In this document: one piece after another, positions 1 through 20,540 of the stretch
Position numbering within the stretch: position 1 is the stretch's first letter
Layout of the letters: each line of letters opens with the position of its first letter
Origin: Paratrimastix pyriformis
Taxonomy: Eukaryota; Preaxostyla; Paratrimastigidae
NCBI GenBank assembly: GCA_027972325.1
Contig: JAPMOS010000046.1
Coordinates: 1 to 64,000, forward strand
Length of the DNA stretch: 64,000 bases
Direction: 5' to 3'
Program-made: the position numbers and the translations under genes
Notes under the pieces: model-generated
Told to the model about the DNA's origin: nothing
What the model saw: the letters and a program-made list of their open reading frames with translations, nothing else
Database searches by the model: none

Positions 1-3000
1 CCACCACCGAGCTCCTCCAGCACCACCCTCATCCACTTCTCCTCCAACTGTTGCTTGTTGTCTTTCGTACCTTTACTTGTAGGAGGGCAATGTTGACCCC
101 CCCAACTCGCAGCAGGTCCGCCACATTGCTCTTCTTCCAGTCTGACCCCCAACCCACGCACGTTCCACCCCACGACCCTCATCCTTCCTCCTCCCTCGCC
201 GGCAGCCCCGCCCTCAGGTTGGCCTCCTTCTTGCCCTGGCACTTCTCCACCCCTGGAATTCTCCTCCGCCTCTCGTCATATGTCTTCGATATCCTCATCT
301 TTGCCACTCGCTCTCTTCTTCCTTGTCGCGTCCTTCTTCCCGCGCTTCTTCCTGGCCTTTCTGCTCATCCCGTCCCCAGGATATCACACCCTAGGGAGTC
401 TCCTGCCGCGCACCCCGACTGCCCCACCTCATGCCTCCAGGTCTTCACCTCTCCCGCCTTACCCGTCTCCCCTTCGTCCCCCCTTGTGCCCTCCCGTCTG
501 CCCCTTCTTTGCTCCCTCCAAAAGCCGGTCCCCATCGAACGCTGCATTCTCGACCCCATCCCCTGCCCCCCGCCACATAAAGAAAGATGTCATTCTTCGT
601 CTCTTCCTCGCCCACCTCCCTCACCACGCTGTCATCGAAGCGCCACCATGCCCCTTCAATCCTCTTCACCGCCACCCAATGTCGCCCCCTCCTCCTTCTC
701 CTTTCGCAGAACTCCGCCGCCGCCTCCAGGCGGTAATTCGTGCCAAGAACTTCCACGGGGTCCGCACCCGCCACTGCGACTGGTCCACCTGCCGTCCCGC
801 CGATCGCGAACCACCTGGACCACCATGACATCCTCCATGCCCACCGCCCGTTCTCCTGCGCATGCCACCGATCGGCACCACACTCTGGGCACTCTTCCGC
901 ACCCGTCCGTCCGCCATCACCACCTTCCGGACCGCTTCACCCATTCTGTCACCGTCCCTCTCCAGACGCACCACCAGGCAGTCCCGCCCTTTCGCGGCCC
1001 TCGCTCACCCTTCCGCATTCCTGACAGACGCACCACCCTCATCCGCGCTCCTGTCGGGATCCGAGCTTTCCTCAGCAAGTCCGCCACCGCATCCCCTGCA
1101 TCCCCATCATGAAGCTCATCCAGCCCATCAACCCTTCTCCCAGATTGCCTGCTCCATACCCGGTCTCCCCAATCACCCTCTCACAACATCGAACAACTGT
1201 CCGGCCTCCACCACTTGAAGGGCTGTTGCCACCAACGGTGGCCCGACGTATTACACACGCCTCTGTACCTCCCGACCCCGCCCCCCGCGCCAACCCTTCA
1301 ACCTCCTCCGGCCCGCCACCACCGCCAATCAACTCGCCCAGTCGCTCCACCATCCCTCCATCACTGTCACTTCCTCCCCTTCCATCAGAGCCTCCTTCTC
1401 CTCCCGTACCTCGTCCCTCGTCCGCCTCTTCGGGCCAGTCTCTTTGCCTGTCTTTCCATCCTCCCTGTCCGCCAGCTGGGATCCCGCCCCCACCCCCAAA
1501 GCCCAAACCTCCGCCGCTCCATCATCCACACCCACTCCTTCCACGCCGCCTCGACTTTCAGAGCCGCGCCGAGTTCCCACCACGCTCTCCGATTCACGCC
1601 CGTCTCTCCCCATTGAGCCAGCGCCACCAGTAAACAGATCCCCACCCATCGATTCCCCAAATAGATTTCGTTTGGTCCAATAATGATTTCCTCGCCCTGC
1701 CCCTTCACCTGAGTCCCGAGCCTGTGGTATTCCCGCCCCCCGACTTGGATCAAGTCGATCAGGCCGTCTTCCAAACCAAGGCCCCTGCATGAACACACAC
1801 AACCTACCAACACTACCGATCAAAATCGTCACAAAGGAGATCCACCAAACCGCCATCATTCTCTGCCAACTCCTGCAGAGACCCATCCGCCCAACTCCGG
1901 CCAAAGATTCCCTCCCCAGGGGGTACTCCACCTGGCAGCAAGCTACTGCCCCATCAGACTTCTCCACCGTCCGTTCCACCCCATTCCACTGTTTCCAATT
2001 CCCCAACCTTCTTTTTCACCAAATCAGATCCCCATCCACTCGTTCTTCCTTCTGCGCTGCCCTCGCCGGCTGGCCGATTCCCCACCGATCGCCACGTTTC
2101 TTTACACCACCTTCTTCCTTTGGGTTCGTCCCCAACATTATTCTAATATCACAGCTCCCCCATTTCCGATACAGCAGCCATCCCTCCCGCAAGCTGGCCC
2201 CTGATCATGCCGCCCAAGTCCACACCCATTTTCTCCAGTCTGTGTAACAAACCACCACTTCACCCACCACTTTCCATCAACAAGATCGATCGTGCCCCCA
2301 GAGCGGCGGCCCAACGACGATATCACTACTGCGTCTTTGTCCAGCTCAATACGTGCCATCCGCACGTAAGGACAACCAGTCGTAATTATCCCGTTCCCTT
2401 TATGAATATATGGTTGCTCAAGGCATGTTTTCAGAAAAGATTCAGATTGAAAACACAACACCTCAAACCAAATCACAGCAACCCCTTGGCCGCCACACGC
2501 ACCACAGTTCGCTGAACGATAGTCCGCGGCCCCCATACTGCTGCTGCTTCTCCCTCGCCAGCCGGTCTCGTTCCTCGGGATCGACCACCAACAACCATGT
2601 CCATCCCAGCGACCCGTCAGGAAGGCCTGCCCTTCCTGGCAATGGTCGCTGGGTGGATTGGAGGCGTCAGACTCGCCAACCAGGCCTCGACAGCCGGCAC
2701 AGTCGCCAGATCCCGACGACGCAGCATCGCCAGCCTCTTGTTGGGCGGCACCTCGACCCGGACCTCGGGAGGCACCACGGTAATGGGCCATCTCGGTTTG
2801 GCATCCCGGTGCGGGAACCACTTCGGCATTTCCTCTTCTCCCGCCGCAGAAACTGACTTGAAAGATCGCCGGCATTAACTTGAACACCCTCAGTGAATCT
2901 ACCAAAACCATAACACCCCTCCGTCTCCCAAGCGCACCACAAACCTTTCCCCCAACCATGTCGCCGTCCTCTTCACTGGCCTCCGTCGGAAAGCCAGCAA

Positions 3001-3541
3001 GCGTAGCCTTGAAGAGCGTTGTAGTGATGATGTCCGGCTTGAATTCAGTCGCCACCGCCACAATGGGTCTCACAGTAGCATGGAACTTCTGCCCTAGTTC
3101 CTCGACCCTTGCAAACTGCTCGGTCGTCGGACGATCGAATAGAATTGAGAATTCGGGGAACGACCCCTCCACCGCGGCGCCAGCGAAAGACGCTTGTATT
3201 TCAGCATATGATAAAGGATTCCCTTCCGGGAACACAAGCGTAGCACCAATTGCCTGCATCACAAAAAAGATCGTCAGGATCACTCCAAGCCGCCGGCCCC
3301 AACTCAGGGCGCTTTGTCTGCGGCACTCAATCCTGCAGACCTTATCCCAGCATGGGCTCTCCCTCATCCTTGCAGGAGCCGCCGCCTCCGCCGCACTCTT
3401 CTCGGCCGCCCGCTTGTGTTGTTGCGCACGAGCCTCTTGCGCAGCCGCCTCCTTCTCAACATCAGACATAGTCACAGATTCAGAATCAGCCATCTTCTGC
3501 GGAGAAATTCAAACGCTTGAAGGTCAACTCGACCCCGGGGC
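1..3541 (-). mobile_element. LINE (non-LTR retrotransposon) copy 1, 5' half, cut by window edge
   Basis: This stretch matches 10,883-14,514 of the complete LINE copy along its whole length, with many small indels and substitutions. The element is read on the - strand, so its 5' end is near 3,541, where the shared sequence stops just after a CCCCGG-type terminus. The rest, from the endonuclease onwards, lies beyond position 1. The ORF1 start is intact, but the protease-like region is decayed: a 4-bp deletion removes the codon equivalent to the active-site Cys found in the other copy, and the frame breaks there. I infer an older or less constrained copy than the one at 5,327-14,514. The insertion target duplication cannot be tested because the 3' end is outside the window. 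Confidence 0.9.
2138..3493 (-). pseudogene. LINE copy 1 ORF1 (membrane-anchored N-terminal part)
   Basis: The frame opens with MADSESVTMSD and stays open for 451 codons. The first 180 or so residues closely match ORF1 of the complete copy: a charged Ala/Glu/Lys-rich start, a Cys-containing basic segment, one hydrophobic helix (LGVILTIFFV, about residues 68-90), then a conserved soluble segment beginning FPEGNPLSYAEIQ. Further downstream the reading frame departs from the one that best matches the other copy, and the equivalent residues appear in another frame at 2,617-2,829. So the copy is probably not functional. I do not recognise the soluble domain. It lacks an obvious coiled coil, RRM or CCHC knuckle of the kind usual in LINE ORF1 proteins. 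Confidence 0.7.
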
Positions 3542-3657: not shown

Positions 3658-4300
3658 GGAAACCGTCTTCACTGGGACGGGCACGAGCTGCACGGGAACA
3701 GCTTCCAGAGGGATGACGGGCCCGTATGGGAATGGCGGCGGGGGCACAAGGGGGGCCGGCGCCGATGGTTGTGGACGGTGTCGTTTGCCATTGTCGCGTG
3801 GTGCGGAATGCTTTGGCGGTGGTGGTGATGGAGTACTGACGATGCTCGGAATGGCCACTGCAGACTCCAACTTTGCGTGAGTCGGAGTCGGTGTGATGGC
3901 ATGATCTGATGCTGGCGGTTCGGGATTCTTTTTAGCTGGCGGAGTCTGCGATGCTTTCTTAGGTTTCGGAGGCTGTTCCGATTCCGATTTTGAATTTCTC
4001 AACCCGGTAATGTGGTCCCTTCTTGAATTCATCGTAACCATCGAGCATCTCAATGGTGGTGGAAGAAAGCATCGGAAAGAAAGGACGATAAATTCCCGAT
4101 GAATTCCTTAGGAGCATACTCGGCAATGAAATCAACCATAGCAGATGTCGGAGCGAAGATGATCGGCATCTTTCTCATAGTGGTGACGGACACGACGACG
4201 AGACCATTCGTGCTTTCATGGCACACAGCCATTGAAGAGAGCTGGAGGTTGCTTGAGAAGAGCCCATTCTTGAAGAGCGCACCCGGTGAGTCGAGGTAAC
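3589..4300 (-). pseudogene. Unrecognised minus-strand reading-frame remnant with proline-rich tail
   Basis: Two overlapping minus-strand frames (4,300 to about 4,050, then 4,053-3,589) read as one plausible protein: a helical start with MVDFIAEYAPKEFIGNL, then a Pro/Lys-rich tail with several PPPP runs ending in SGDPGPP. The layout, a helical N-terminus followed by a low-complexity Pro/Ala tail, resembles the protein of the 1.48-kb elements at 14,803 and 17,869. The similarity is too weak to assign family membership. It lacks the shared 3' hairpin and tail of those elements. The upstream end runs into the CA array and carries no start codon I can support. Function unknown. Confidence 0.35.
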
Positions 4301-4304
4301 CCTG

Positions 4305-4630
<326 letters not shown>

Positions 4631-4722: not shown

Positions 4723-5326
4723 GGCCTCTGCTGCAAGGCCTGGTACGCACCAGATGACGACGGAGTTCGGGCCGCGACCCACACCACGGTCACGGGCGGG
4801 ACAGGCTATCCTCAAGGACCACCAGACCTTCAACACGAAGCTCGACCTCCACCACGCCTGGAACCTGCCCTACCTGTACGGGATCCCTGGCTCCACAAGA
4901 GGCCCATCAAGATGCGCTTCATCGTTTGCCCCGCCCGACGGACCTAGCCACCAAGCCCGCCAACACCCAGGCAGCACCTCCGCCACGTCGGGCCCCCAAG
5001 CCCGCGTGCTCAACCACCAGTGTTTCGGAGCTGCTGGTGAAGCTTCTGGGCCTCGTCGGCTCTCCGGGAGAAGGACGAGCAGGCCAAGGAGCACGGCCGC
5101 CGGTTCGTCATGATCGAGACCTTCGAGGAGGCCGCCCTGGACTCAAGCAGAAGGCCGACTCCCTCAGGGTCCGCCAAGCTGCGCCGCGTACGTTCGACTT
5201 TCACCACCATGTACACCCAGCTGCCTCATGACCGCCTCATCGCCAACGTCAAGAAGGCCCTGGAGGAGGCCTTCGCCTGGGCCGCAACCAAGCACGCCCG
5301 CACGACCCGCTCCGGGGCACCGCTGG
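4723..5326 (+). mobile_element. RT-bearing element, segment 1 (fingers and palm A)
   Basis: Plus-strand translation shows LPYLYGIP followed by KRPIKMRFIV, the fingers region of a reverse transcriptase, and further on TFDFTTMYTQLPHD, the palm motif A block with its catalytic Asp. Coding is cut exactly at 5,326, where the LINE is inserted, and resumes at 14,525. The motif style (FTTMYTQLPH, then IPMGTNCAPQLANLY in segment 2) is unlike the LINE in this window. It resembles a group of eukaryotic RTs that I would place near Penelope-like elements, with low certainty. No capsid, protease or integrase region is seen. The copy is a broken fossil because of the nested insertions. Confidence 0.7.
5317..5326. 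repeat. Target-site duplication of the LINE, left copy
   Basis: GCACCGCTGG here is repeated at 14,515-14,524 on the far side of the LINE. Removing the LINE and one duplicate restores continuous RT-type coding in the host element, so this is a clean target-primed insertion. Confidence 0.95.
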
Positions 5327-5400
5327 TGTGTGTGTGTGTGTGTGTGATACTTCCCGGCTTACGCCGAGTCCGTTATCGGGCCGAAGCCCGCGGGTAGCAT
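5327..5400 (-). other. LINE 3' end: UUCG hairpin, GNRA hairpin and (AC)n tail
   Basis: In element orientation the RNA would read CGGGC-UUCG-GCCCG (5,377-5,390), then CGGC-GUAA-GCCG (about 5,355-5,366), then AAGUAUC and an AC-repeat tail. Both loops are classic stable tetraloops. The copy at 34,070-34,139 keeps both stems, with GCAA in place of GUAA, still a GNRA loop. I infer the recognition structure for the element's own reverse transcriptase. Confidence 0.75.
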
Positions 5401-5499
5401 AGACCTCCCGGTCCGCCCTCCCCGCGAGACAAGCTCGCAAGAAGGAACGCCCCAAGTGGTCCATGGGTCGGCTCGCGCCCACAAGGGGCGGTCACCGCC

Positions 5500-6830
5500 G
5501 ACACTCGGACTACGTCCCTTCGTCCATCCCTTCCTCGTTCTTCTCGTTCTTCTTCCGTTGCTTGATCGCTACCAGCATAGTTCTCCGCAGTCCACCCAGT
5601 TCGCTCCCAATCTCCTTCTGGGTCTCTTCATCCACAATCCCCAGCTCTGCTGCCAGTCTGCAGTCATTCGCGTAGATTTCCCTAAGCCCGCACCGTCTTC
5701 GCAGTCTCCCAGCAACTTTCTTCACCACACCTTCTGAAATCCCCCTCCAGTTATAGAGCACTTCGCCCTCCTTCGGACGCCCCTCATAGTCAGCCTCCAC
5801 TCTTCGCGCTCCCGCCTCCTTTCGCAACATGTTCTCCAATGCCCACAAGGGGCTGGGTCCATCGGGAATCTCTCGGGCCCGCTGGTTCTCGAAGAGCAGA
5901 ATGCCCACGTCAAACGGGGCCTCCCCGCACCTTTCTCCCCGTCCGCCAGAAGCTCGGCAGCCAGAAGCTGAAGCCCCTTCCTCAATGATAAACAGCTCCT
6001 TCAGTTGCATGTCCCCCTCAGCGCCAAACCGACTCCATGCTGCGCCTTCATTCCTGCACCGGCCGCGTCCGGTTTGGCTTGCCCACTCCGTACGGGACTA
6101 TCGCGATACATCGGAAGGCTCTTCCCAGCTCTACCAATTGGGCTCTCCGCCCAATCACCAATTGCCGTAAATAACCGGTCCATCTCCTCCTGTGGGTTGT
6201 ATTCAGGGTTGGCAAAGATGAGGTCGCGATTCTCCTTAAACAACCCGTAGCCATCCAGTCTTCCACCCAAAACCAGTCATCCTTGCTGGGCGTTCTGAAT
6301 TCAGGGAGCTCAAATCGGCATTCCCAGGATGCGAGAATGCCATCGTTGTCAAACCGCCTGCTTGTCTGAGCAGAGGACACCACGTGGGGGTCGTCCACTG
6401 GTTTCGCAGGGTGCTCTTGTGGGTCTGCCCTTCTGCCATCTCCGTACTCATCCCATCCACATATCGATCGCAGAGGTTCGCCACTTCTGTGGTGAACATT
6501 TCCAGAAGCTGTCCCAGGTTCGGGCGCGGTACCAGCGCCCCCGCGATCGCTCGATGAGCTCCCAGAGTCTGTCCATCGCTATTTGCTTACCTCTCACCTG
6601 CACACTTTGACCCATAGGCTCCACCCATTTTCTTGGAGCAATTGTTCTGCATCTTCTGCTCCTTCCCCTTGTCCAGCCACGCGATCAGTTTGATCGCATT
6701 GGCACCACTCCACCTTTCAGCGACACTGCCCATCATAGCCGGGCATTCAAAACCAAATGGTTCGTATAGTCTCTCGCCCCACACCAACATTTCCCATCCC
6801 CTTCACCATTGATGTAGAATCTGATGTTGG
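5500..6830 (-). pseudogene. LINE ORF2 C-terminal region: Cys/His motif and charged tail
   Basis: After RNase H the minus strand encodes CWCGARDYTNHLVL and, after a frame change, CPAMM (about 6,740-6,785). This is the C-x-C...H...C pattern found near the C-terminus of many LINE ORF2 proteins. It continues as a helical, highly charged tail (5,510-6,010) that is conserved in the plus-strand stub at 33,689-34,139. Frames change at least twice across this stretch. The motif probably binds nucleic acid, by analogy with other LINEs. Confidence 0.6.
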
Positions 6831-7089
6831 CCGTGATGTACCGCTGCAAGATTGCCATCATGGCCAGTCTGCCCGACATTTCGCATCGCATGGTCTGCGT
6901 ATTTATTCCGCCATTTCCCGTCTGAGCATTGATGACCACCAGTGTTTGCGTTTCCGGGCCGCCCTGGAGATGCGTCCGCGGCGGCTGAAGGACTGGAGGC
7001 TTGTGCGAAAGTCTCCTCCACCTCCTCCCCGTCGCATTGGTGAACCAACCGAAAACCCCAGGTCCGTTCCTGTTGCACCTTGCCTATGT

Positions 7090-7530
7090 CCTGTTTGATG
7101 CTTTGCCCGGCAATCTTGTCTGCCAATCTGTTCCCCTCCGCATCCAGCGATGCCCCTGTCTCCTGGTGCCCTTCACCCACACCAGCCGGACACCCCCTGT
7201 GCTCCTTCAGAATTCGCTGTCCCTTCGGAGGAGGCCTCGGCCTTCGACTCGATCAGGTCCGTCGGTGTCCAGTCGTCCTTCATCAGCCTCTCCACCCATC
7301 CCTTTGCCACCTTACTGTCCGCACCTCCACGTTTGCATCCTGTCCCACTCTGATGGCTTCCAGGATGGCTTCCAGCTCTGCCTCATTGTTTGTTTGCCCT
7401 TTCCCGTGCACCTTCTCCCGACCCGCACAGCCAGTGCCCCATTGGACAGCTGCCCACCACCGCCAATGCAGCTCGCCGGTCCTTCTTCTTCTTGGTCGCG
7501 CTACCATCTGTGTAAAAGTCCGCCACTTCA
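7090..7530 (-). pseudogene. LINE ORF2 RNase H domain
   Basis: The minus strand reads FYTDGSATKKKK (first catalytic Asp, about 7,512), then QTNNEAELEAILEAI, which carries the catalytic Glu, and then GHQETGASLDAEGNRLADKI near 7,110-7,170. The last is the conserved C-terminal His/Asn/Asp block of RNase HI. The pieces lie in different frames, so this copy is decayed. RNase H in a LINE removes the RNA strand during target-primed reverse transcription and is typical of I-like clades. Confidence 0.8.
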
Positions 7531-8489
7531 GCTCGGGCTCCTCCACCCGCACCTCCACCTCCTCACACTCCGCCCGCAGTGCCTCCCATCGCCTCCACAT
7601 TGCCTCGTCCCACTTGCCCGCTCTCATCCGGCTCTTCTTGCTTTCCCCGTTCTGGTCCAGGTGCTCTCCGCCCCCTCTTCTTGTCGCTGGCTTCAACATG
7701 CATCCTCTCCGTTTCGCCATCCCCTGCTCGTCGGCTTCCCTTTCTTGGCGGCCTCCCACCCCGGCTCCCCGCTTCGGCGTTTCCTGTTCTTCGCCACGAC
7801 CACCAGCTTTCCTCCTTGCCCCACCATCAGCTTGGCTTGTCTCATCTTCCTCCGGGTCTGGGATCCCGTGATCCTTCCCACCATCCTCTCTCTCTTGCCC
7901 GTATCCCGTCCCGCCCTCTCGGCTCTCCTTTCCTGTTCCGCCCTTGCCCTCTTTCGATCTCTTCTGCCACTTCTTCCTCTCGGATCCTCCTCGCCAACTT
8001 AACATATTCCGTCTCCACTTTGTTCCCCACACACACCCGCTCCTTGATGGCCTCCACGTACTGCGGCATCGTGCCCTTCCACTGAAACCTACCGCCCACA
8101 ATCAGGTCAGCCACTCCTGATGCCCCTCTTCATGAGTGTCTGCCTATGCCGCTTGGTGATTTTGCATGGCTCTGCCAGCTCCTCCAGTGTTGTCGGCATT
8201 CCCCATTCCGCTTCCTTTTCAATACTTCCCCATCCCCTCACGATGGCCAACCCCTTCTTGTGCAAGATCCTCAACATCCCCGACACCACCCCGGCATCTT
8301 CTCCTTCGCGTGCAGTCTGACCCACTTCCCGGGGTTGTCCAGCAGCGGCTCACTCGTCGTCCACAACTTTTGCAGGGCTATCTCTTCACGGAGCATCACG
8401 CCGCACCCTTGTTGGTCTGCCACCCTGCCCAGCAGTTGCGTGAGCACCATCATGTCGTGCACATCCACCGGGTCCTTGAGACCCATCCC

Positions 8490-9800
8490 ACCCTCATCCT
8501 CCGGGAAGAGCACCTCCGCCGGGTCGCATTTCCCAAGCACCCACCAATCTCCCGAAATACTCGCGCATAGCGCTGTTGAAGAATCTCAAGGTCCTTCTGC
8601 GGCATGGGCACTGCCTCGCCGTATATTGTAGGCACGTCGACACGCACTCGTTGATCATCTGCACCATCAACCTCGGTGGGACCTTCTTGTCCATCAGCCT
8701 GTGCAACCTCCCACACATTTTCTGGATGACCTTCTCCGTGTTGATCTTCATGTTCATCTCCTCGTCTATCCAAATTCCCAGGTACCGGATGGCCCCACCC
8801 TTCTGCTGGACCTTGATGACTCGACCCTCACCCAGGTCCAGGTCCGTCTTGCTCTTTACCCCCCACACAGGTAGTCACACTTGGTCCACGACAGCTGCAT
8901 ACCCGCCTCCACCTTCCGTCTCACTGTGTTGACCAACCGTACCATCTGCTCCTTGGTTCGAGTGACCAGCATCACATCGTCAGCAAAGGCAAGGACCTTC
9001 ACCTTCCTTCCACTATCCAGGATATACCCACCTTCCTGCTTTCGCACCTCTGCCAGCACTTCTCCATGAATGAGATAAATAGCAGACATGAAAGCGGGTC
9101 CCCTGACTAATGCCTCTCTATCTCATAGCTCGTCAGCCCGAAACCCGTAATGACTTTGGCCTTCCTCCCCTCGTACAGACTCTCCACATACCTGATGAAT
9201 GCCTCCTCAACCCCCATCCGTCTCAACCTCCTCAGTGCGTCCATGTCCACTGTATCATAGGCCTTTTTGATATCTAACGAGCACATGTGGAATTCCCTGC
9301 CTCCCATAATTTTCGAGTCAGTGAGCACTCCCATAATTTCTGCAATTGGGGTCTCAATCCTTCCTCCCTCAGAAACCCAAACTGCTCCTCCCCAAACACA
9401 TTCCTTTGCACGCACCATTCTTGGAACCGCGACGCCATCACCACCTGCAATCCCTTCAAAAAGACCTGTATCAAAGTGATTGGCCTTCTGCCTGCAGGGT
9501 CACCAGGGTGTTCTGTCTGCGACTTCGTGGCCATGAACACCGAACTGACCTTGAGCTCCTGCGGCACTTCACCCGCTCCAACATCTCATTGTATCTCCTC
9601 CCAACCACTCTTTGATCTCTTCCCCACAGGCATGGATCATCTCTGCCGTCACTCCATCCGGGCCCGCCGCCTTACCATCGGGGAGCGCCCCCAGGATTGT
9701 CTCAACATCATGCGTTGTGAGGGGGGCCATGATCACCCTCCTTCTTCCTGCGGCCTTCCTTCTGGCACCCGTCCCACCCTCGGGCCCACCGGCAACACCC
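8490..9800 (-). pseudogene. LINE ORF2 reverse transcriptase domain
   Basis: Motifs in order on the minus strand: GALPDGKAAGPDGVTAEMI (motif 1, about 9,640-9,700), RRPITLIQVFLKGLQ (about 9,460-9,500), SLDIKKAYDTVD (motif A with catalytic Asp, about 9,250-9,285), FADDVMLVTRT (motif C, the catalytic Asp pair, about 8,975), then YLGIWIDEEMNMK (thumb side, about 8,785). This is a standard non-LTR RT and is clearly different from the IPMGTNCAP-type RT of the element it interrupts. The frame is broken at several points. Confidence 0.92.
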
Positions 9801-10349
9801 TCCTTGCCAGGTCCGCCATGAAGTTCCTCCATCCATTCTTCACCGACTCCGGATCTGTGACCACTTTGTCCACCTTTCCTCCACATTCTTAGTTGCATAC
9901 GACGTGACCGGCGCCACCCCGTCTGTCATGATGCCCTTATATATGCGCTTGCGCTTCCCTTCCAACGCCCGATCCTCTTCCCAGTGCACGCCTCATTTTG
10001 GCCAACTGCTTCTGCATTTCCCTCCTCAGGTTCCGCTCCGCCATCGCCATCCGTCTCAGCTTCTTCATGCGATGGGGCTCATAATCCCTGTCTGTGTTGG
10101 CCACGTCCCGGAACCCAAACACCTTCCCCGCCGTCTCCCGCAGGATCCCACTCATCTGCTCGAACGATGGGTCCGCCCCTTCTCCATCGCCTTCCGAAGC
10201 AATTCCGCCACTTTCTCCCGGTACGCGCATCTTCCCCACCATCCCTTCATACTCATCCTTCCTCCCGCAGCAACGCATCCAGGTCCGACTTGGACGGGCA
10301 GATGGCCACCTTCCTCCGCAGCGTTCCCGCCCATGCCGGCAACATGTTC

Positions 10350-11110
10350 CTCAAGTCAGTGACTACCATGTGATGGTCTGTGACTTCCTGCCATTGAACC
10401 TCCTCATTTCTCCACACCCACATATTGTCCAGCAATCGTGCCATCGTCCCCTGCGTTGCTGGGCAAAGGTCCAGCCTGGCCTCCCCTTTCCCCCTTGCTT
10501 GCCCTCCTCCACCTTCCCTCCTTTCTTGTTGCGCACGAATGTGATCTCGTTCTGCTTACCCACCATCTTCGCCGTGTCATACAGACCCAGCATCTCCTGC
10601 TCACCAACCTCCTTGGCCCAGCTATTCGCGTCCGTGTACACCACCACGCCCCTCCCTCAGCTGCTCCCTCCGCCATGCACTCTTCCAACCTCCTGATAAT
10701 GACATTCCTTACCCTCACCTTGTCCTCTCCCTCCCCAGATTTATGAGCCTCAGGTTGGTCTTCCCCTCCGACCAATCGAGAAACATCAAGTAGCCAGGGA
10801 TCACCTCCCTGACCTTGCGCACTGCTATCTGTAAGGTCCGCCTATACCCAATCATCACCCCTCCCTTGGGGTGCCGCATCTGCGTCCTCCACCACCGAGC
10901 TCCTCCAGCACCACCCCTTCATCCACTTCTCCTCCAACTGTTGCTTGTTGTCTTTCGTACCTTTCGTCTCTTGCAGGAGGGCAATGTTGACCCCCAACTC
11001 GCAGCAGGTCCGCCACATTGCTCTTCTTCCAGTCTGACCCCAACCCACGCACGTTCCACCCCACGACCCTCATCCTTCCCTCCTCCCTCGCCGGCAGCCC
11101 CGCCCTCAGG
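10350..11110 (-). pseudogene. LINE ORF2 APE-type endonuclease domain
   Basis: The minus strand reads MRVVGWNVRGLGSDWKK (start of the exonuclease/endonuclease/phosphatase fold, with its catalytic Asn), then GVNIALLQETKG with the metal-binding Glu, and ends near 10,400 with TDHHMVV, the S/T-D-H catalytic motif. The domain nicks target DNA to prime reverse transcription. Frame changes separate the blocks in this copy. Upstream is a Lys/Arg-rich then Glu-rich linker (about 11,100-11,296) that may mark the start of ORF2. Confidence 0.85.
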
Positions 11111-11489
11111 TTGGCCTCCTTCTTGCCCCTGGCACCACTTCTCCACCCCCTGGAATTCCTCCTCCTCCGCCTTCTCGTCATATGTCTTCTCGATATCCCT
11201 CATCTTTGCCACCTGCCTCTTCTTCCTTGTCGCGTCCTTCTTCCCGCGCTTCTTCCTGGCCTTTCTGCTCATCCCGTCCCCAGGATACCTGGGCACCCCG
11301 GGTAGGGAGTCCCCGTTACCGGGCGCACCCCGGACTGCCCCACCTCATGCTCCTCCAGGTCTTCACCTCTCCCCGCCTTACCCGTCTCCCCTCTTCGTCC
11401 CCCCTTGTGCCCTCCCGTCTGCCCCCCTTCTTTGCTCCCCCCTCCAAAAGCCGGTCCCCACATCGAACGCTGCATTCTCGACCCCATCC

Positions 11490-12230
11490 CTGCCCCCGCC
11501 ACATAAAGAAAGATGTCGCCATTCTTCGTCTCTTCCTCGCCCACCTCCCTCACCACGCTGTCATCGAAGCGCCACCATGCCCCTTCAATCCTCTTCACCG
11601 CCACCCAATGTCGCCCCCCTCCTCTCCCTTTCGCCGCCGCCTCCAGGCGGTAATTCGTGCCAAGAACTTCCACGGGGTCCGGCTGCACCCGCCACTGCGA
11701 CTGGTCCACCCTGCCGTCCCGCCGATCGCGAACCACCTGGACCACCATGACATCCTCCATGCCCACCGCCCGTTCCTCCTGCGCGTGCCACCGATCGGCA
11801 CCACACTCTGGGCACCTCTTCCGCACCCGTCCGTCCGCCATCACCACCTTCCGGACCGCTTCACTCATTCTGTCACCGTCCCTCCAGACGCACCACCAGG
11901 CAGTCCCGCTCCCTTTCGCGGCCCTCGCTCACCCTTCCGCATTCCTGACAGACGTGCACCACCCTCATCCGCGCTCCTGTCGGGATCCGAGCTTTCCTCA
12001 GCAGGTCCGCCACCGCATCCCCTGCATCCCCATCATGAAGCTCATCCAGCCCATCAATCCCCTTCTCCCAGATTGCCTGCTCCATACCCGGGTCTCCCCA
12101 ATCACCCCTCTCACAACATCGAACAACTGCCCGGCCCCCCACCGCTTCCACCACCTGGAGGGCTGTTGCCACCCAACAACGGTGGCCCGACTTATTACAC
12201 ACGCCTCTGTACCTCCCGACCCCCGCCCCC
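11490..12230 (-). pseudogene. Ubiquitin-specific-protease-like (peptidase C19) domain inside the LINE
   Basis: The minus strand carries the ordered landmarks of a USP: a Cys box GVCNKSGHRCWVATALQ (Cys codon 12,176-12,178), a DAGDAVADLL block like the QQDAxE helix, a first CQEC knuckle (11,939-11,950), a second CPEC knuckle (11,803-11,814) followed by VMVVQVVRDRR in the place of the usual hydrophobic strand ending in KRF, then the His box GRHWVAVKRIEGAWWRFDDS (His codon 11,608-11,610, Asp pair about 11,559-11,564). Cys, His and Asp are all present. One frame change lies near 11,880. Spacing fits the C19 fold without large inserts. It would cleave ubiquitin or a ubiquitin-like protein if active. 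Its role for a LINE is unknown. Confidence 0.75.
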
Positions 12231-13437
12231 TGCGACAAGCCAACCCCATCAACTTCCTCCAGCTCGCCACCACCGCCAAACAACTCGCCCGGTCGCTCGA
12301 TCATCCCTCCATCCGTCAATCTCTCACTGTCACGTCCCCTCCCCCTTCCATCAGAGCCTCCTTCTCCTCCCGTACCTCGTCCTCGTCCGCCTCTTCGGGC
12401 CAGTCTCTTTGCCTGCCACTCTCCCCCAGTCCGCCAGCTGGGATCCTGCCCCACCCCCAAAGCCCAAACCTCCGCCGCTCCATCATCCACACTCTCTCCT
12501 TCCACTCCGCCTCGCTTTTTAGAACCGCGTCGAGTTCCCACGCTCTCCGATTCACGCCCGCACCTCCCCATTGAGCCATCGCCACCAGTAAACAGATTCC
12601 CACCCATCGATTCCCCCCAAATAGATTTCGTTTGGTCCAATAACGATGTCCTCGCACTCCCCCTTTCATCTGAGCCCAGAGCCTGTGGTATTCCCCGCCC
12701 CCTCGCTTGGATCAAGTCGATCAGGGCCATCTTCCAAAACAAAGCCCCTGCATGAACACGCACAACCTACCAACACTACCTATCAAAATCGTCAAAAGGA
12801 TATCCACCAAACCGCCATCATTCCCTGCCAACTCATGCAGAGACCCGTCCGCCCAACTCCGGCCGAAGATTCCCTCCCGGGGTGCTCAACCTGGCAGTAG
12901 CAAGCTGCCCCATCAGTTTCCTCCACCGTCCGCTCTACCCCATTCCTCTGTTTCAATTCCCCGGTCTTTTTTTTCACCAAATCAGATCCCCATCCGCTCG
13001 TTCTTCTTCCTCCTACGCTGCCCTCTCCGGCTGGCCGATTCCCCACCGATCGCCACGTTTCCTTTGCCACGCCTCCTTCTTCCTTTTGGTCCGTCCCCAA
13101 CATTATTCTATTATCACAGCTCCTCCATTTCTGATACAGCAGCCGTCCCCACCCGCAGGCCGGCCCCTGATCATGTTGCCCAAGTTCACACCCATTTTCT
13201 CCAGTCTGTGTAACACACCACCACTTCACCCACCATTTTCCTTCAATAAGATCGATCGTGCCCCATGCGAGTGGCCCAACGACGATACTGCGTTTTTGTC
13301 CAGCTCAATACGTACCATCCGTACGTAAGGACTGAATCCAGTCGTAACCATCCCGTACCCTTTATGAATATATAATGGTTGCTCAAGGCATGTTTTCAAA
13401 AAAGATTCAGATTGAAAACACAACACCTCAAACCAAA

Positions 13438-14466
13438 TCACAGCAACCCCTTGGCCGCCACACGCACCACAGTCCGCCGAACAATAGTCCGCGGCCCCCA
13501 TATTGCTGCTGCTTCTCCCTCGCCAGCCGGTCTCGTTCCTCGGGATCGACCACCAATAACCACGTACCGTCCCAGCGACCAGTCAGGAAGGCTTGTCCCT
13601 TCCTGGCAATGGTCGCTGGGCGGATTGGAGGCGTCAGGCTCGCCAACCAGGCCTCGACAGCCGGCACAGTCGCCAGATCCCGACGGCGCAGCATCGCCAG
13701 CTTCTTGTTGGGCGGCACCTCGACCCGCACTTCGGGAGGCACCACGGTAATGGGCCATCTCGGGTTGGCATCCCGGCGCGGGAACCACTTCGGCATTTCT
13801 TCTTCTCCCTCCGCAAAGAAGCTGACTTGAAAGATCGCAGGCATTAACTTGAACACCCTCAGAGAATCTACCAAAACCATAACACCCCTTCTCCATAGCA
13901 CAACACAAACCTTTCCTTCCCAACCAAGTCGCCACATCCTCTTCACTGGCCTCCGTCGGAAAGCCAGCAAGCGTCGCCTTGAAGAGCGTTGTCGTGATAA
14001 TGTCCGGCTGGAATTCAGTCGCCACAGCCACAATAGGCCTCACAGTAGCATGAAACTTCTGGCCAAGTTCCTCAACCCTTGTGAACTGCTCGGCCGTCGG
14101 ACGATCGAATAGAATTGAGAATTCGGGGAACGACCCCTCCACCGCGGCGCCCGCAAAAGACGCCTGAATTTCAGCATAGGACAGAGGATTCCCATCAGGG
14201 AACAAGAGCGTAGCCCCAATAGCCTGCAGCACAAAAAAGATCGTCAGGATCACTCCAAGCCGCCGGCCCCAACTCAGGGCGCTTCGTTTGCGGCACTCAA
14301 TCAAACAGACCTGATCCCAACATGGGCTCTCCCTCATCCTTGCAGGAGCCGCCGCCTCCGCCGCACTCTTCTCGGCCGCACGCTTGTGTTGTTGCACACG
14401 GGCAGCCTCTTGCGCAGCCGCCTCCTTCTCAGCATCAGACATAGTCACAGATTCAGAATCAGCCAT
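13438..14466 (-). pseudogene. LINE copy 2 ORF1, membrane-anchored
   Basis: Opens 48 bp inside the element with MADSESVTMSDAEKE. There is an Ala/Glu/Lys-rich helix (residues 10-45), a Cys-containing basic stretch, one strongly hydrophobic segment (LGVILTIFFVLQAIGATLLF, about 70-90), then a soluble domain (SYAEIQASFAGAAVEGSFPE onward) of about 110 residues shared with copy 1. A frame change near 13,900 moves the best-conserved continuation (VDSLRVFKLMPAIFQVSF, then MPKWFPRRDANPRWPITVV) into another frame. I do not recognise the soluble domain. The topology predicts a type II or tail-in membrane protein, which is odd for a retrotransposon ORF1. Confidence 0.65.
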
Positions 14467-14514
14467 CTTCTGCGGAGAAATTCAAACGTTGAAGGTCAAC
14501 TCGACCCCGGGAAT

Positions 14515-14524
14515 GCACCGCTGG
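14515..14524. repeat. Target-site duplication of the LINE, right copy
   Basis: GCACCGCTGG, identical to 5,317-5,326. Confidence 0.95.
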
Positions 14525-14802
14525 GTCTGACACCGATCGCCTGGGGCAACAACGGCTTCTCCGTCGAGGACGTCACCGGCATGGTCGAGTTCGTCGTGCA
14601 GAACACGTACGTGTGCAACGGGCCCATCATCCGGCACCAGGGGGTTGGCATCCCCATGGGCACCAACTGCGCGCCCCAGTTGGCCAATCTGTACTGCTAC
14701 GCCATCGAGGCGGACTTCGCGGACCGACATCCCGAGGTCACCCACGAGTTCACCTACAGGTACATCGATGACATCCTGACGTTCCACCCGGTGGAGCACC
14801 TG
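14525..14802 (+). mobile_element. RT-bearing element, segment 2 (palm B and C)
   Basis: Continues the RT of 4,723-5,326. Plus-strand translation shows IPMGTNCAPQLANLYCYAIE (motif B) and YRYIDDILTF (motif C with the catalytic Asp pair). It is cut at 14,802 by the 1.48-kb element B, which carries its own 14-bp target duplication. Confidence 0.85.
14789..14802. repeat. Target-site duplication of element B, left copy
   Basis: CGGTGGAGCACCTG, repeated at 16,283-16,296. The final TG could belong to the element's tail, so the duplication is 12-14 bp. Confidence 0.9.
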
Positions 14803-16282
14803 TGTGTGTGTGTCATACATGTTTGCAACATAGAGATGCAAAACTCCCGATTCCGGCCGAAGCCGGGGGGTAACATGACCCCCAGTCCCTCCCATGTCCC
14901 CCGCAATTCTGCGGGCAACTAGGGCTAGGGGCGGGGGCTATGGTGACAGGGAGAGGTAGAAAAGAACGGGGGGGAGGGGACCAAGGAATAGGGTGGATCG
15001 AGGAGATAAATCAGGGAAAAGACTGAACAACGGGACAAAAGATTGAACCGAAAGGAACACAATTCCCTTACATTGGGACTTCTTGGGCGTTGGGCATCCG
15101 CGTCCCCATGTACCATCTGGTACTGGTGCGGAACACGAACATCGGGGCGTGTTGTTGGCGGATCCACCATCCAAAGTCCCGCCTCCGCGGCCCGTCCGGT
15201 CCCGCGGGCACTCGAGCCGCCCTGCTCCCCTTCAACCCCAGATCCGTGGGGCAGAGCGAGGCTCCCTTCGGCGTGGCAGAAGCCCTTGCGCTGGGGCAGG
15301 GACAAGCGCAGGGGCAGCATGGGCAGGGGCAGCATGGGCAGGGGCAACATGGGCAGGGGCAACATGGGCAGGGGCAGGGGCAGGGGCAGGGCAGGGGCAT
15401 GGGCAGGGGCCACAGTGGGAGTCGCAGTGGGGCTGGTGCAGATGCAGTGGGGCTGGTGCAGATGCAGTGGGGGCTGCTGCAGATGCAGTGGGGCTGGGGC
15501 GGCACCCTGGCGAACGGATTCCCGACCGGCGCGGGCTGCTGGTGGGCAACAGCAGGGCGCACAGCAAAAGGATTGCTGTCAGCCTTCTCCTCAACCCTGT
15601 CCTTCTTCTTTGCTGGCGAAGGTTCAGGGGATGGCGGACGTGGCCGACTCGTACCACCTCCAAGCTGAAGCGGGGCAGCTGAGGGGTCGATGCAATGTGC
15701 GGTCACTTTTCCGGGAGGCTGTTTGACAGTGCTCGGTGACTTTGGACACAGGCCGGATTGCGGCGAAGCAGTGGACGGGTTCACCGAAGCCACAGGTCGG
15801 CGGGAACGGGGTCGCCATCGATATCGCGATACAGTAACGGGCTTGCTGGAAGACTCCAAATTGAAAATGGTGGCACCACAAATGAATTGAATCAATTGCG
15901 CAAGCTTTGGCAGCACAGAGATTGATCGCCCCCGCCGACCGTAGAATGCTCAAACTGATGCGCTGAAGCAACTTGGTCGACGGGATGCGCTTCTCAGAGG
16001 CCACCAAATACCCAAAAGTTTGCCAAACTCAGGGATCATGGTAGAAGTGAAGGAAAGACGGCTCAGCTGGTCCATGCTCCGGAAGATAGCTCGATGATCG
16101 TCGAGCTCGTCAATAAAGCACAGAAATGGATCTTCTTCATCAAGAATAGAAGCATGTTTTCAATAAAAGCAATGGTTGCGTCGTCCAGATCATCATTCAC
16201 CGCAGTGATTTCGCAGGCCATAGCTGAGTAAATCGTGCGCCCAGCAATACGTGCAGTGGAGACTGAGCAATAGTGCCGGGGA
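14803..16282 (-). mobile_element. Element B: 1,480-bp RT-less retroelement, family B/C
   Basis: Flanked by a 14-bp target duplication, read on the minus strand. The 5' end reads GTCCCCGG. The 3' end has CCGGC-UUCG-GCCGG, then GTATGACACACA and a short AC tail, the same layout as the LINE. It encodes, across more than one frame in this copy, a helical N-terminal part, NPF-containing segments (SNPFAVRP, GNPFARV), a long Ala-Pro-His low-complexity run and a C-terminal GWWI-type segment. Element C (17,869-19,349) matches it in length, order and sequence style. No RT, endonuclease or transposase is present, so it must depend on another element, most likely the LINE next door. Confidence 0.88.
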
Positions 16283-16296
16283 CGGTGGAGCACCTG
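16283..16296. repeat. Target-site duplication of element B, right copy
   Basis: CGGTGGAGCACCTG, identical to 14,789-14,802. Confidence 0.9.
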
Positions 16297-17698
16297 GTCC
16301 CGCCCACCATGCGGTACCCTCGTCAATCTCCAACATCCCGCTCCACCAACTGGTCGGCATCACCACGGGGCAGCTGGACCGCATCTCCGCCATCAGCAGC
16401 AACATGAAGGCCTTCAAGAGCGGCGTCCAGAAGTACGTGCAGCAAAGTCTCGACCGTGGCCACAATGTACGGGGCATTGTTCGAGGCTGGAGCGTCTACC
16501 TGCAGGACCGCTGGACTGCGAACGAGATCCGCTCCTACCGCATCCGGAGCTGGTTCCGCAACATGTGCATCGCCTCCATCCGAGCACGGGACTCCACAGC
16601 CAGCATTCCGCCCCAACTCCGTCGCAAGCCAGCGAAGGACGTCGAGCTCATGGCCAGCCAGCAGTCTCTTCACCTGCCGGCACAACAACAGCCTCAGGGC
16701 CCCCACAGCAACAGTCTGAGTTTATGGCGAGCTTCCTCGAGGCCCCTCAGCATGAGGCCCCAGCACCGCAGCCCGAGGCCCCAGCACCGCAGCATGAGGC
16801 CCCAGCACCGCAGCCCGAGGCCCCAGCACCTCAGCCTGCCCCGCAACCTCAGGGTTCCACCCCGCAACCGCAGGCCGCTGCACCGCAACCGCAGGCCGGA
16901 GCACCGCAAGCGCCTGCAGGCCCTGCAACATCCGCGTCTGCCCAACCAGACCGCGGCGACGGGATCCTCCCAATCCCGGAGCGCTTCCTCAAGCTGCAGA
17001 GGAACCTCATGCCACCGCCACCCCCTCCGGGGAAGGGCAAGGCCGGGCCAGAGCCAGCCGCCAAACAGCCAGCCAGCCAACCACCAGGGGCTCCGCAGAC
17101 CCCGAAGCAGGAGATCGCCACCCCGCACTCCTCCTCCGGTGAGTCATCATCGCCCTCCTCCTCGCAGGCGTCGGCCGACCCAACTGCAACACCTCCCACA
17201 TCGCCACCAGCCCGCAAAGCGTCACGCCCCTCCCCGTCGGCATCCGAAGGGAGCTCCAGCAGCAGCAGCGACAGTGACGGCAGCGGCAGCGGCAGTGGCC
17301 GGAGCGGAGACGACAGCGAGGACAACAGCGGGGACGACGACGAGGAGGCCAGCGAGGAGGCCTCACCCGCACCCGCATTGACACGCACTGCATCGGCGCG
17401 CACTGCATCAACACGCACTGCATCTGCACCCACGGCATCTGCACCCACGGCATTTGCACACACAACATGCGTGACACCTCCACGTCGCACCCGAGCATCG
17501 GGCAGGGCGGTCCTCCCGAAACACGTCGTGGCCTTCCAGCCCGACGACCCGTCGCTGCACGGGCTCTCGGTGAGCGAAATTGTGGCAAAGGGCATCACAG
17601 CGGGCATTCCGGAAAATGTTTGCCCGTTCTGTTGCGGGATGTTCCAGTCTCGCAAATCGGTGATGGCCCATATGCGGAAGTCCCACAAGGACTACTAA
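16297..17698 (+). mobile_element. RT-bearing element, segment 3 (thumb region, low-complexity linker, C2H2 finger)
   Basis: Resumes the element after insertion B. It first encodes a helical stretch (SNIPLHQLVGITTGQLDRI, then NMKAFKSGVQKYVQ) that fits the region following the palm of this RT group. A long linker follows, with EAPAPQP repeats (about 16,745-16,830), Ser/Asp-rich and RTAS repeats, ending in one C2H2 zinc finger, CPFCCGMFQSRKSVMAHM, and a stop at 17,698. A C-terminal zinc finger after such a linker is unusual for an RT element. It may guide DNA binding at the target. The coding is broken in this copy, which I treat as a fossil. Confidence 0.65.

Positions 17699-19721: not shown

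Positions 19722-20540
<819 letters not shown>

Follow-up and report, generated by a model that had tools for sequence, protein, structure and literature searches.

A USP-type cysteine protease domain, a candidate deubiquitinase, at the start of ORF2 in LINEs of Paratrimastix pyriformis

We analysed a 64,000-nt stretch of DNA from Paratrimastix pyriformis (GCA_027972325.1, contig JAPMOS010000046.1, positions 1-64,000; hereafter the window), the minus strand of which carries a complete copy, about 9.2 kb long (5327..14511), of a long interspersed nuclear element (LINE). The second open reading frame (ORF2) of this LINE, and of a clade of related elements in the same genome, appears to start with a compact (~245-residue) cysteine protease domain of the ubiquitin-specific protease (USP; peptidase C19) type. 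Our overall reading, to which we assign a probability of roughly 0.55, is that this domain is a deubiquitinase that guards the element's own reverse transcriptase (RT) particle.

The USP-like domain in the window and in the genome

In the window copy the domain spans 11434..12220 on the minus strand, with limits that are approximate and set by comparison with open copies elsewhere in the genome. A sequence-only reading of the window had pointed to USP landmarks at 11490..12230, on the LINE's own strand and in the right order, and all of them were located on the minus strand (positions of the catalytic codons are from a hand count): the predicted catalytic Cys codon TGT in GHRCW (12176..12178), a column that is invariant in our alignment; a QQD-like box LDELHDGDAGDA, the DAGDA block (12014..12049), which reads QDGEAEEA in subfamily C and GHQEDARELL in family D; a first and a second CxxC knuckle (11939..11950 and 11803..11814); the predicted catalytic His codon in GRHWVAVK (11608..11610); and the predicted third catalytic residue in FDDS (11560..11565), which is FNDS in subfamilies B and C. 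The same reading had placed the domain between ORF1 and the endonuclease, which is correct and can be narrowed to the N-terminus of ORF2. Its view that the catalytic triad survives in a decayed copy holds in so far as the Cys, His and Asp codons are present, but the domain is spread over two frames: one frame, 11873-12766, holds the landmarks from the Cys box through the DAGDA block to the first knuckle, and another, 11269-11928, those from the second knuckle through the His box to the Asp box. Even with the window fragment as the sole query, the C-terminal half of the domain matches the Pfam UCH profile (PF00443; curated cut-off 23.9 bits) with E 6.4e-4 at 19.8 bits, which is below the cut-off.

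A search of the genome (56.06 Mb in 495 contigs) gave at least 40 DNA matches to the USP stretch at 95-100% identity (scored from 122 candidates) and, in six-frame translation, at least 163 matches to the intact domain, with identities of 42-100% among the matches listed. Forty loci were compared: 20 (L009-L028) chosen as the best DNA matches to the USP stretch outside the window, and 20 (L029-L048) chosen from the six-frame domain matches, mainly for open frames and divergence. The whole domain lies in one open frame at 24 of the 40 (7/20 of the former set and 17/20 of the latter). The number of genome matches, these open frames and the UCH match obtained even from the window fragment together argue that the domain is not a product of chance.

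By their identity to P0003 the open copies group as subfamilies A (83-100%), B (66-68%) and C (54-59%). The boxes named in the sequence-only reading are kept in them: the Cys and both CxxC knuckles in 24/24, the third residue in 24/24 (Asp in A, Asn in B and C) and the His in 21/24. At the DNA level, among 21 family-A copies (20 loci plus the window; at most 2 substitutions), the stretches for Cys, His and the second CxxC are present in 21/21 and those for Asp and the first CxxC in 20/21. Indels in the USP stretch of 20 family-A copies, compared with L013, fall mostly in homopolymer runs (48/67), so slippage in vivo or errors of assembly could account for part of the apparent decay.

The catalytic Cys box of USPs follows the pattern C-[FYW]-x4-[LI]-Q, and boxes of this type are seen, at the level of the motif only, in the LINE domains, including the more diverged families D and E described below (HRCWVATALQ, HRCWISTALQ, NSCYLGVALQ and NLCFLTASIQ). 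The His and Asp boxes follow in order, as GRHWVAV...WWRFDDS or FNDS and as GGGHWTC...WFYFDD. At the QQD position the sequences are HDGDAGDA, QDGEAEEAL, GHQEDARELL and GRQEDATEVI, a good fit in D and E and a weak one in A. Zinc knuckles of two C-x2-C pairs occur in most, not all, USPs, and the third catalytic residue varies between Asp and Asn among known USPs (USP7 vs USP2).

Profile comparisons point the same way. The sequence-only reading had proposed a peptidase C19 domain, and UCH is above its cut-off in the copies of family D (35.7 and 35.6 bits), in the His half of family E (24.0 bits) and in 6/10 of the A-C domains scanned alone (24.1-28.2 bits; the other four score 17.7-23.7); the window fragment and longer A or C proteins give 16-23 bits, below the cut-off. 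UCH is detected in 13/13 A-C members at E up to 0.1, and in a UCH scan of the genome the cut-off is also passed by 18 rows, of 61, that coincide with LINE copies. A profile of A-C searched against PDB at E up to 1 returned 41 matches, comprising 38 USP-type hydrolases, 2 of the deubiquitinase TssM and 1 unrelated protein, the best being USP15 (E 4.9e-6). The Cys, His and Asp/Asn boxes stand in the same order in the LINE domain, in cellular USPs (nearest USP15) and in TssM; USP15 also aligns through the second knuckle, and TssM aligns over the Cys box (at 4 bits) and then the His box. The His half of the A-C profile scored 18.7 and 5.1 bits against two host USP segments, with 0/1000 shuffles as high. 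Unlike cellular USPs, the LINE domain is compact and embedded in ORF2. On these comparisons it is very probable that the domain is real, common to many copies and homologous to the C19 USPs. It is likely, too, that most of the lineages seen have a complete Cys-His-Asp/Asn active site with a zinc-knuckle finger, from which activity is predicted.

The position of the domain follows from codon periodicity, read from the substitution pattern of L030 vs L012, L029 and L013. ORF1 corresponds to element positions ~33-1080, and about 1 kb between ORF1 and ORF2 lacks codon periodicity (a fast-evolving spacer at 12400..13430, minus strand, in the window; approximate limits carried over from L030). Strong third-position bias sets in at element position ~2326, which is the start of the USP domain; since the bias begins where the domain begins, we take the latter to be the N-terminal domain of ORF2, the order of which is USP-like domain, linker, apurinic/apyrimidinic (AP) endonuclease, RT and RNase H.

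Selection and the more diverged families

For L029 vs L030, nonsynonymous divergence (dN) in the USP domain is 0.040 and synonymous divergence (dS) 0.250, a ratio of 0.16 (bootstrap 0.085-0.28), to be set beside 0.057 for the endonuclease, 0.077 for the RT, 0.20 for the linker and 0.70 for the upstream stretch. With this dN/dS below 1, the UCH matches and the kept boxes, the USP-type identity proposed in the sequence-only reading is supported at the level of sequence.

The UCH scan of the genome also led to family D (L049, L052), which shows NSCYLGVALQ, GHQEDARELL, two CxxC, GGGHWTC and WFYFDD; in L049 an endonuclease-RT frame follows the domain directly. Over most of the family D domain, starting at the Cys box and running beyond the Asp box, the A-C profile gives an alignment of 31 bits, a score already lowered by a bias correction of 16. 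Family E (L050), seen within 1.3 kb of sequence, is split between two frames, one with NLCFLTASIQ and GRQEDATEVI and the other with GGGHWTC and WFGFDD. In family F (L055) an open endonuclease-RT frame is preceded by the landmarks, which are scattered among several frames, and the profile scores are weak (14.1 and 11.8 bits). The two CxxC knuckles are found in D, E and F as well.

In an RT tree built with 51 database LINEs (B and E are outside the tree, and no Dualen reference is in it), the RTs of A, C, D, F and L056 occupy one side of a branch with support 100/94. Their sister group (100/98) consists of four proteins: the Rhizophagus irregularis LINEs P0018 and P0020, together with P0032 and P0049. 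No USP match was found in these four (P0049 starts at the RT, its upstream part being unseen). L056 is a more distant RT relative (44%) with no credible USP upstream; this copy is broken and was counted neither way. Leaving L056, B and E aside, the RT branch and the shared domain fit a single capture before the families split. We regard it as probable that one capture event preceded the divergence of the families and that purifying selection has since retained the domain.

Beyond this genome, the ORF2 search returned 51 LINE relatives among 8000 candidates scored, and none of the 51 has a meaningful USP match (best 7.0 bits with the A-C profile and 5.0 bits with the family D domain). A protein-database search with the domain region gave no match at E up to 1, by a method that needs shared 5-residue words and also missed the cellular USPs. 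No relatives were confirmed in the viral contigs and genome contigs searched. In the P. pyriformis genome itself, a six-frame search blind to introns gave no match to chlorophyll a/b-binding protein or to chitin synthase 2.

Structure of the element and its surroundings

The 5' end of the LINE at 14511 is common, within 2 bases, to 14 of the 22 fetched loci compared (L009, L012-L016, L019-L022, L024, L026, L029 and L030), and the flanks beyond it differ between loci in the 12 of those 14 that were inspected. In the window the copy is bounded by a 10-bp target-site duplication CCAGCGGTGC (14515..14524 on the 5' side and 5317..5326 on the 3' side, minus strand), with three extra bases at the 5' junction (14512-14514). 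The duplication and the (AC)n 3' tail are as for a retrotransposon of the type without long terminal repeats (non-LTR).

All coding features of this copy are on the minus strand. ORF1 (13435..14466, with its ATG at 14466) contains a transmembrane-like stretch by eye and has no Pfam match. In the copies compared, its third-position bias switches frame near element position 600, for which a splice, a programmed frameshift or a fixed lesion are the alternatives. We also considered a single ORF1-USP polyprotein, as frames of 966-1820 aa run from ORF1 through USP in several copies; given the non-coding spacer and the frame change in ORF1, these long frames look accidental, and the candidate was rejected. 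The AP-type endonuclease (10407..11051) gives 20-24 bits for Exo_endo_phos (cut-off 24.5) in open A and C copies. The RT core (8772..9498, approximate limits) corresponds to RVT_1 matches of 110-112 bits in the open copies L029 and L012, and RNase H (7080..7520, approximate limits) to 66 bits in L029; the ORF2 stop codon is at 5510..5512. The open protein P0007 has 2291 open residues, taking in part of the spacer, and combines endonuclease and RT in one ORF (Exo_endo_phos 20.3 bits, below the cut-off, with the motifs WNVRGLG and LLQETK by eye; RVT_1 110 bits; RNase H 66 bits).

The window edge truncates another copy of this LINE, the 5' part of which occupies 1..3540 (minus strand) with ORF1, spacer, a decayed USP domain (~1255-448) and the start of the endonuclease; L021 and L029 match some 540 bases at the 5' end of this copy with 99.8-100% identity. 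At L027:1365-3806 (plus strand) a diverged ORF1 (MSTSTVTGS...) precedes a USP domain of subfamily A, which suggests that the 5' end is recombinant or older. An RT-like frame at 14119-14922 on the plus strand (RVT_1 27.1 bits, cut-off 29.6) adjoins the 5' end of the window LINE, which may have inserted in or beside another RT gene. Another repeat, at 14801-16237, recurs in L010 (1410 bp matched) and L025 (1447 bp matched), in both of which it abuts or lies inside LINE copies. Long CA/TG microsatellites are present at 4290-4550 and ~20000-20250; the 3' tail of the LINE is also (AC)n, and such tails may have seeded some of them. Finally, a 474-residue frame at 16274-17698 (plus strand) shows weak similarity to a C2H2 finger at its C-terminal end (16.8 bits, below the cut-off of 27).

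Possible functions and comparison with known elements

Host ubiquitin-dependent pathways fight LINE proteins. In our proposal, the USP-type domain at the start of ORF2 would act as a protease with ubiquitin as its substrate and would remove ubiquitin mainly from the element's own ORF2/RNA particle, which could thereby escape ubiquitin-dependent destruction before target-primed reverse transcription. We tentatively favour such protection of the element's own particle as the most likely function of the domain.

Several results weigh against the proposal. The UCH matches are confined to the His half of that profile, and Pfam gave no match to the Cys half alone. Against the two host USP segments, the Cys half of the A-C profile reached the low scores of 5.4 and 3.2 bits; that just 0/1000 and 1/1000 shuffles, respectively, came as high nevertheless speaks for the proposal. 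Structure prediction of the domain returned a predicted local distance difference test score (pLDDT) of 49, at which the fold cannot be judged. Between subfamilies, dN is 0.23-0.37 and dS is high, from 1.3 to saturated, and two pairs within subfamily C have ratios of 0.41 and 0.30, indicating weaker constraint. The three open copies without a His box (L042-L044) have lost it through two small deletions that are jointly frame-neutral, and the same loss is seen in L045 and L048, outside the 24 open copies. In a genome pattern search allowing at most 2 mismatches (reversed-pattern control 0), this His-removing lesion was present at 29 subfamily-C sites and absent at 20. The 29 sites imply that the His-less lineage multiplied, which argues against a strict requirement for the active site during such spread, barring help in trans.

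Four other explanations were considered. The domain might be a deubiquitinase aimed at host factors, namely ubiquitinated histones, or proteins of silencing or DNA repair, at the place where the element inserts. This is the less probable direction of activity in our estimate, even though the domain sits next to the endonuclease, the OTU and Ulp1 domains of transposons are proposed in a passage of the Ginger paper (PMC2836005) to act on repair factors, and the same source reports that a DNA transposase of Trichomonas (XP_001314237.1) has a Peptidase C19 domain. Neither a targeting module nor a partner was identified, and the present results do not separate host from self substrates.

It is unlikely that the domain serves to process the protein of its own element, for instance by cleaving after a Gly-Gly that closely follows the domain and so freeing the endonuclease-RT part. 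By eye, GPAFGG does stand behind the domain in A, B (L033) and C, amid a diverging linker, but it is missing in D and E and out of frame in L034 and L035. Moreover, the non-coding spacer separates ORF1 and ORF2, so there is no ORF1-ORF2 polyprotein to cut, and USPs normally require a folded ubiquitin-like substrate.

We consider it quite improbable that the domain has ceased to be a protease and now serves in ubiquitin binding alone, or that it is a passenger in the course of loss. The frame-keeping His-box lesion of subfamily C speaks for such a state, but the dN/dS of 0.16 in family A and the landmark residues retained in A, B, D, E, F and the lesion-free C copies speak against it. Finally, another papain-like cysteine protease (Josephin, OTU or Ulp1) or a chance look-alike has very little probability: weak Josephin matches cross the His box in 12/13 A-C members (best E 0.014) and the Cys half lacks a profile match, but UCH outscores Josephin wherever both occur, Pfam scans of the domain gave no Ulp1 or OTU match at the thresholds used, the QQD-like box and the two zinc knuckles are among the landmarks of USPs, and nearly all PDB matches are USPs.

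Among known LINEs, those of the Dualen/RandI type carry an OTU-like cysteine protease and share the AP endonuclease, RT and RNase H with the P. pyriformis LINE, which has a USP where Dualen has an OTU together with an additional restriction-like endonuclease. Neither OTU nor a restriction-like endonuclease was listed in the Pfam scan of the open ORF2, the latter not having been specifically sought. The combination of AP endonuclease, restriction-like endonuclease and RNase H in Dualen/RandI is described in a passage of PMC4640811, as is the Ulp1 protease at the N-terminus of the non-LTR RT protein of NeSL and Utopia-1_TSP. The latter elements likewise have a ubiquitin/SUMO-hydrolase-type cysteine protease at this place, but theirs is Ulp1-like and accompanied by a restriction-like endonuclease, whereas the P. 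pyriformis LINE combines a USP (C19) with an AP endonuclease and RNase H. Ubiquitin/SUMO hydrolases have likewise been captured by the Trichomonas transposase, by Ginger1 (OTU/Ulp1), by Helitrons (OTU) and by Mutator (Ulp1), as given in part of PMC2836005, but these are DNA transposons and not retrotransposons; a Helitron with deubiquitinase-like domains is also cited in the reference list of PMC7599744. Among the titles and abstract openings listed by full-text searches, the coverage of which excludes Repbase reports and most subscription papers, none describes a USP in a LINE.

The odds appear about even that a LINE clade acquired a USP independently at the N-terminus of its RT protein, as the third kind of ubiquitin-system protease after OTU and Ulp1, and uses it as a true deubiquitinase. 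If so, the removal of ubiquitin would be a recurrent requirement of LINE retrotransposition. The LINE-borne proteases met so far are Ulp1-like and OTU-like, and the USP type would add another. The retention of a USP-type domain over six diverged families and subfamilies (A-F) in one genome makes the idea that LINEs bring their own deubiquitinase testable by standard assays, with the natural His-less subfamily as a built-in comparison. More broadly, the presence of a USP-like domain in LINEs suggests an interference of these elements with the ubiquitin system of their host.
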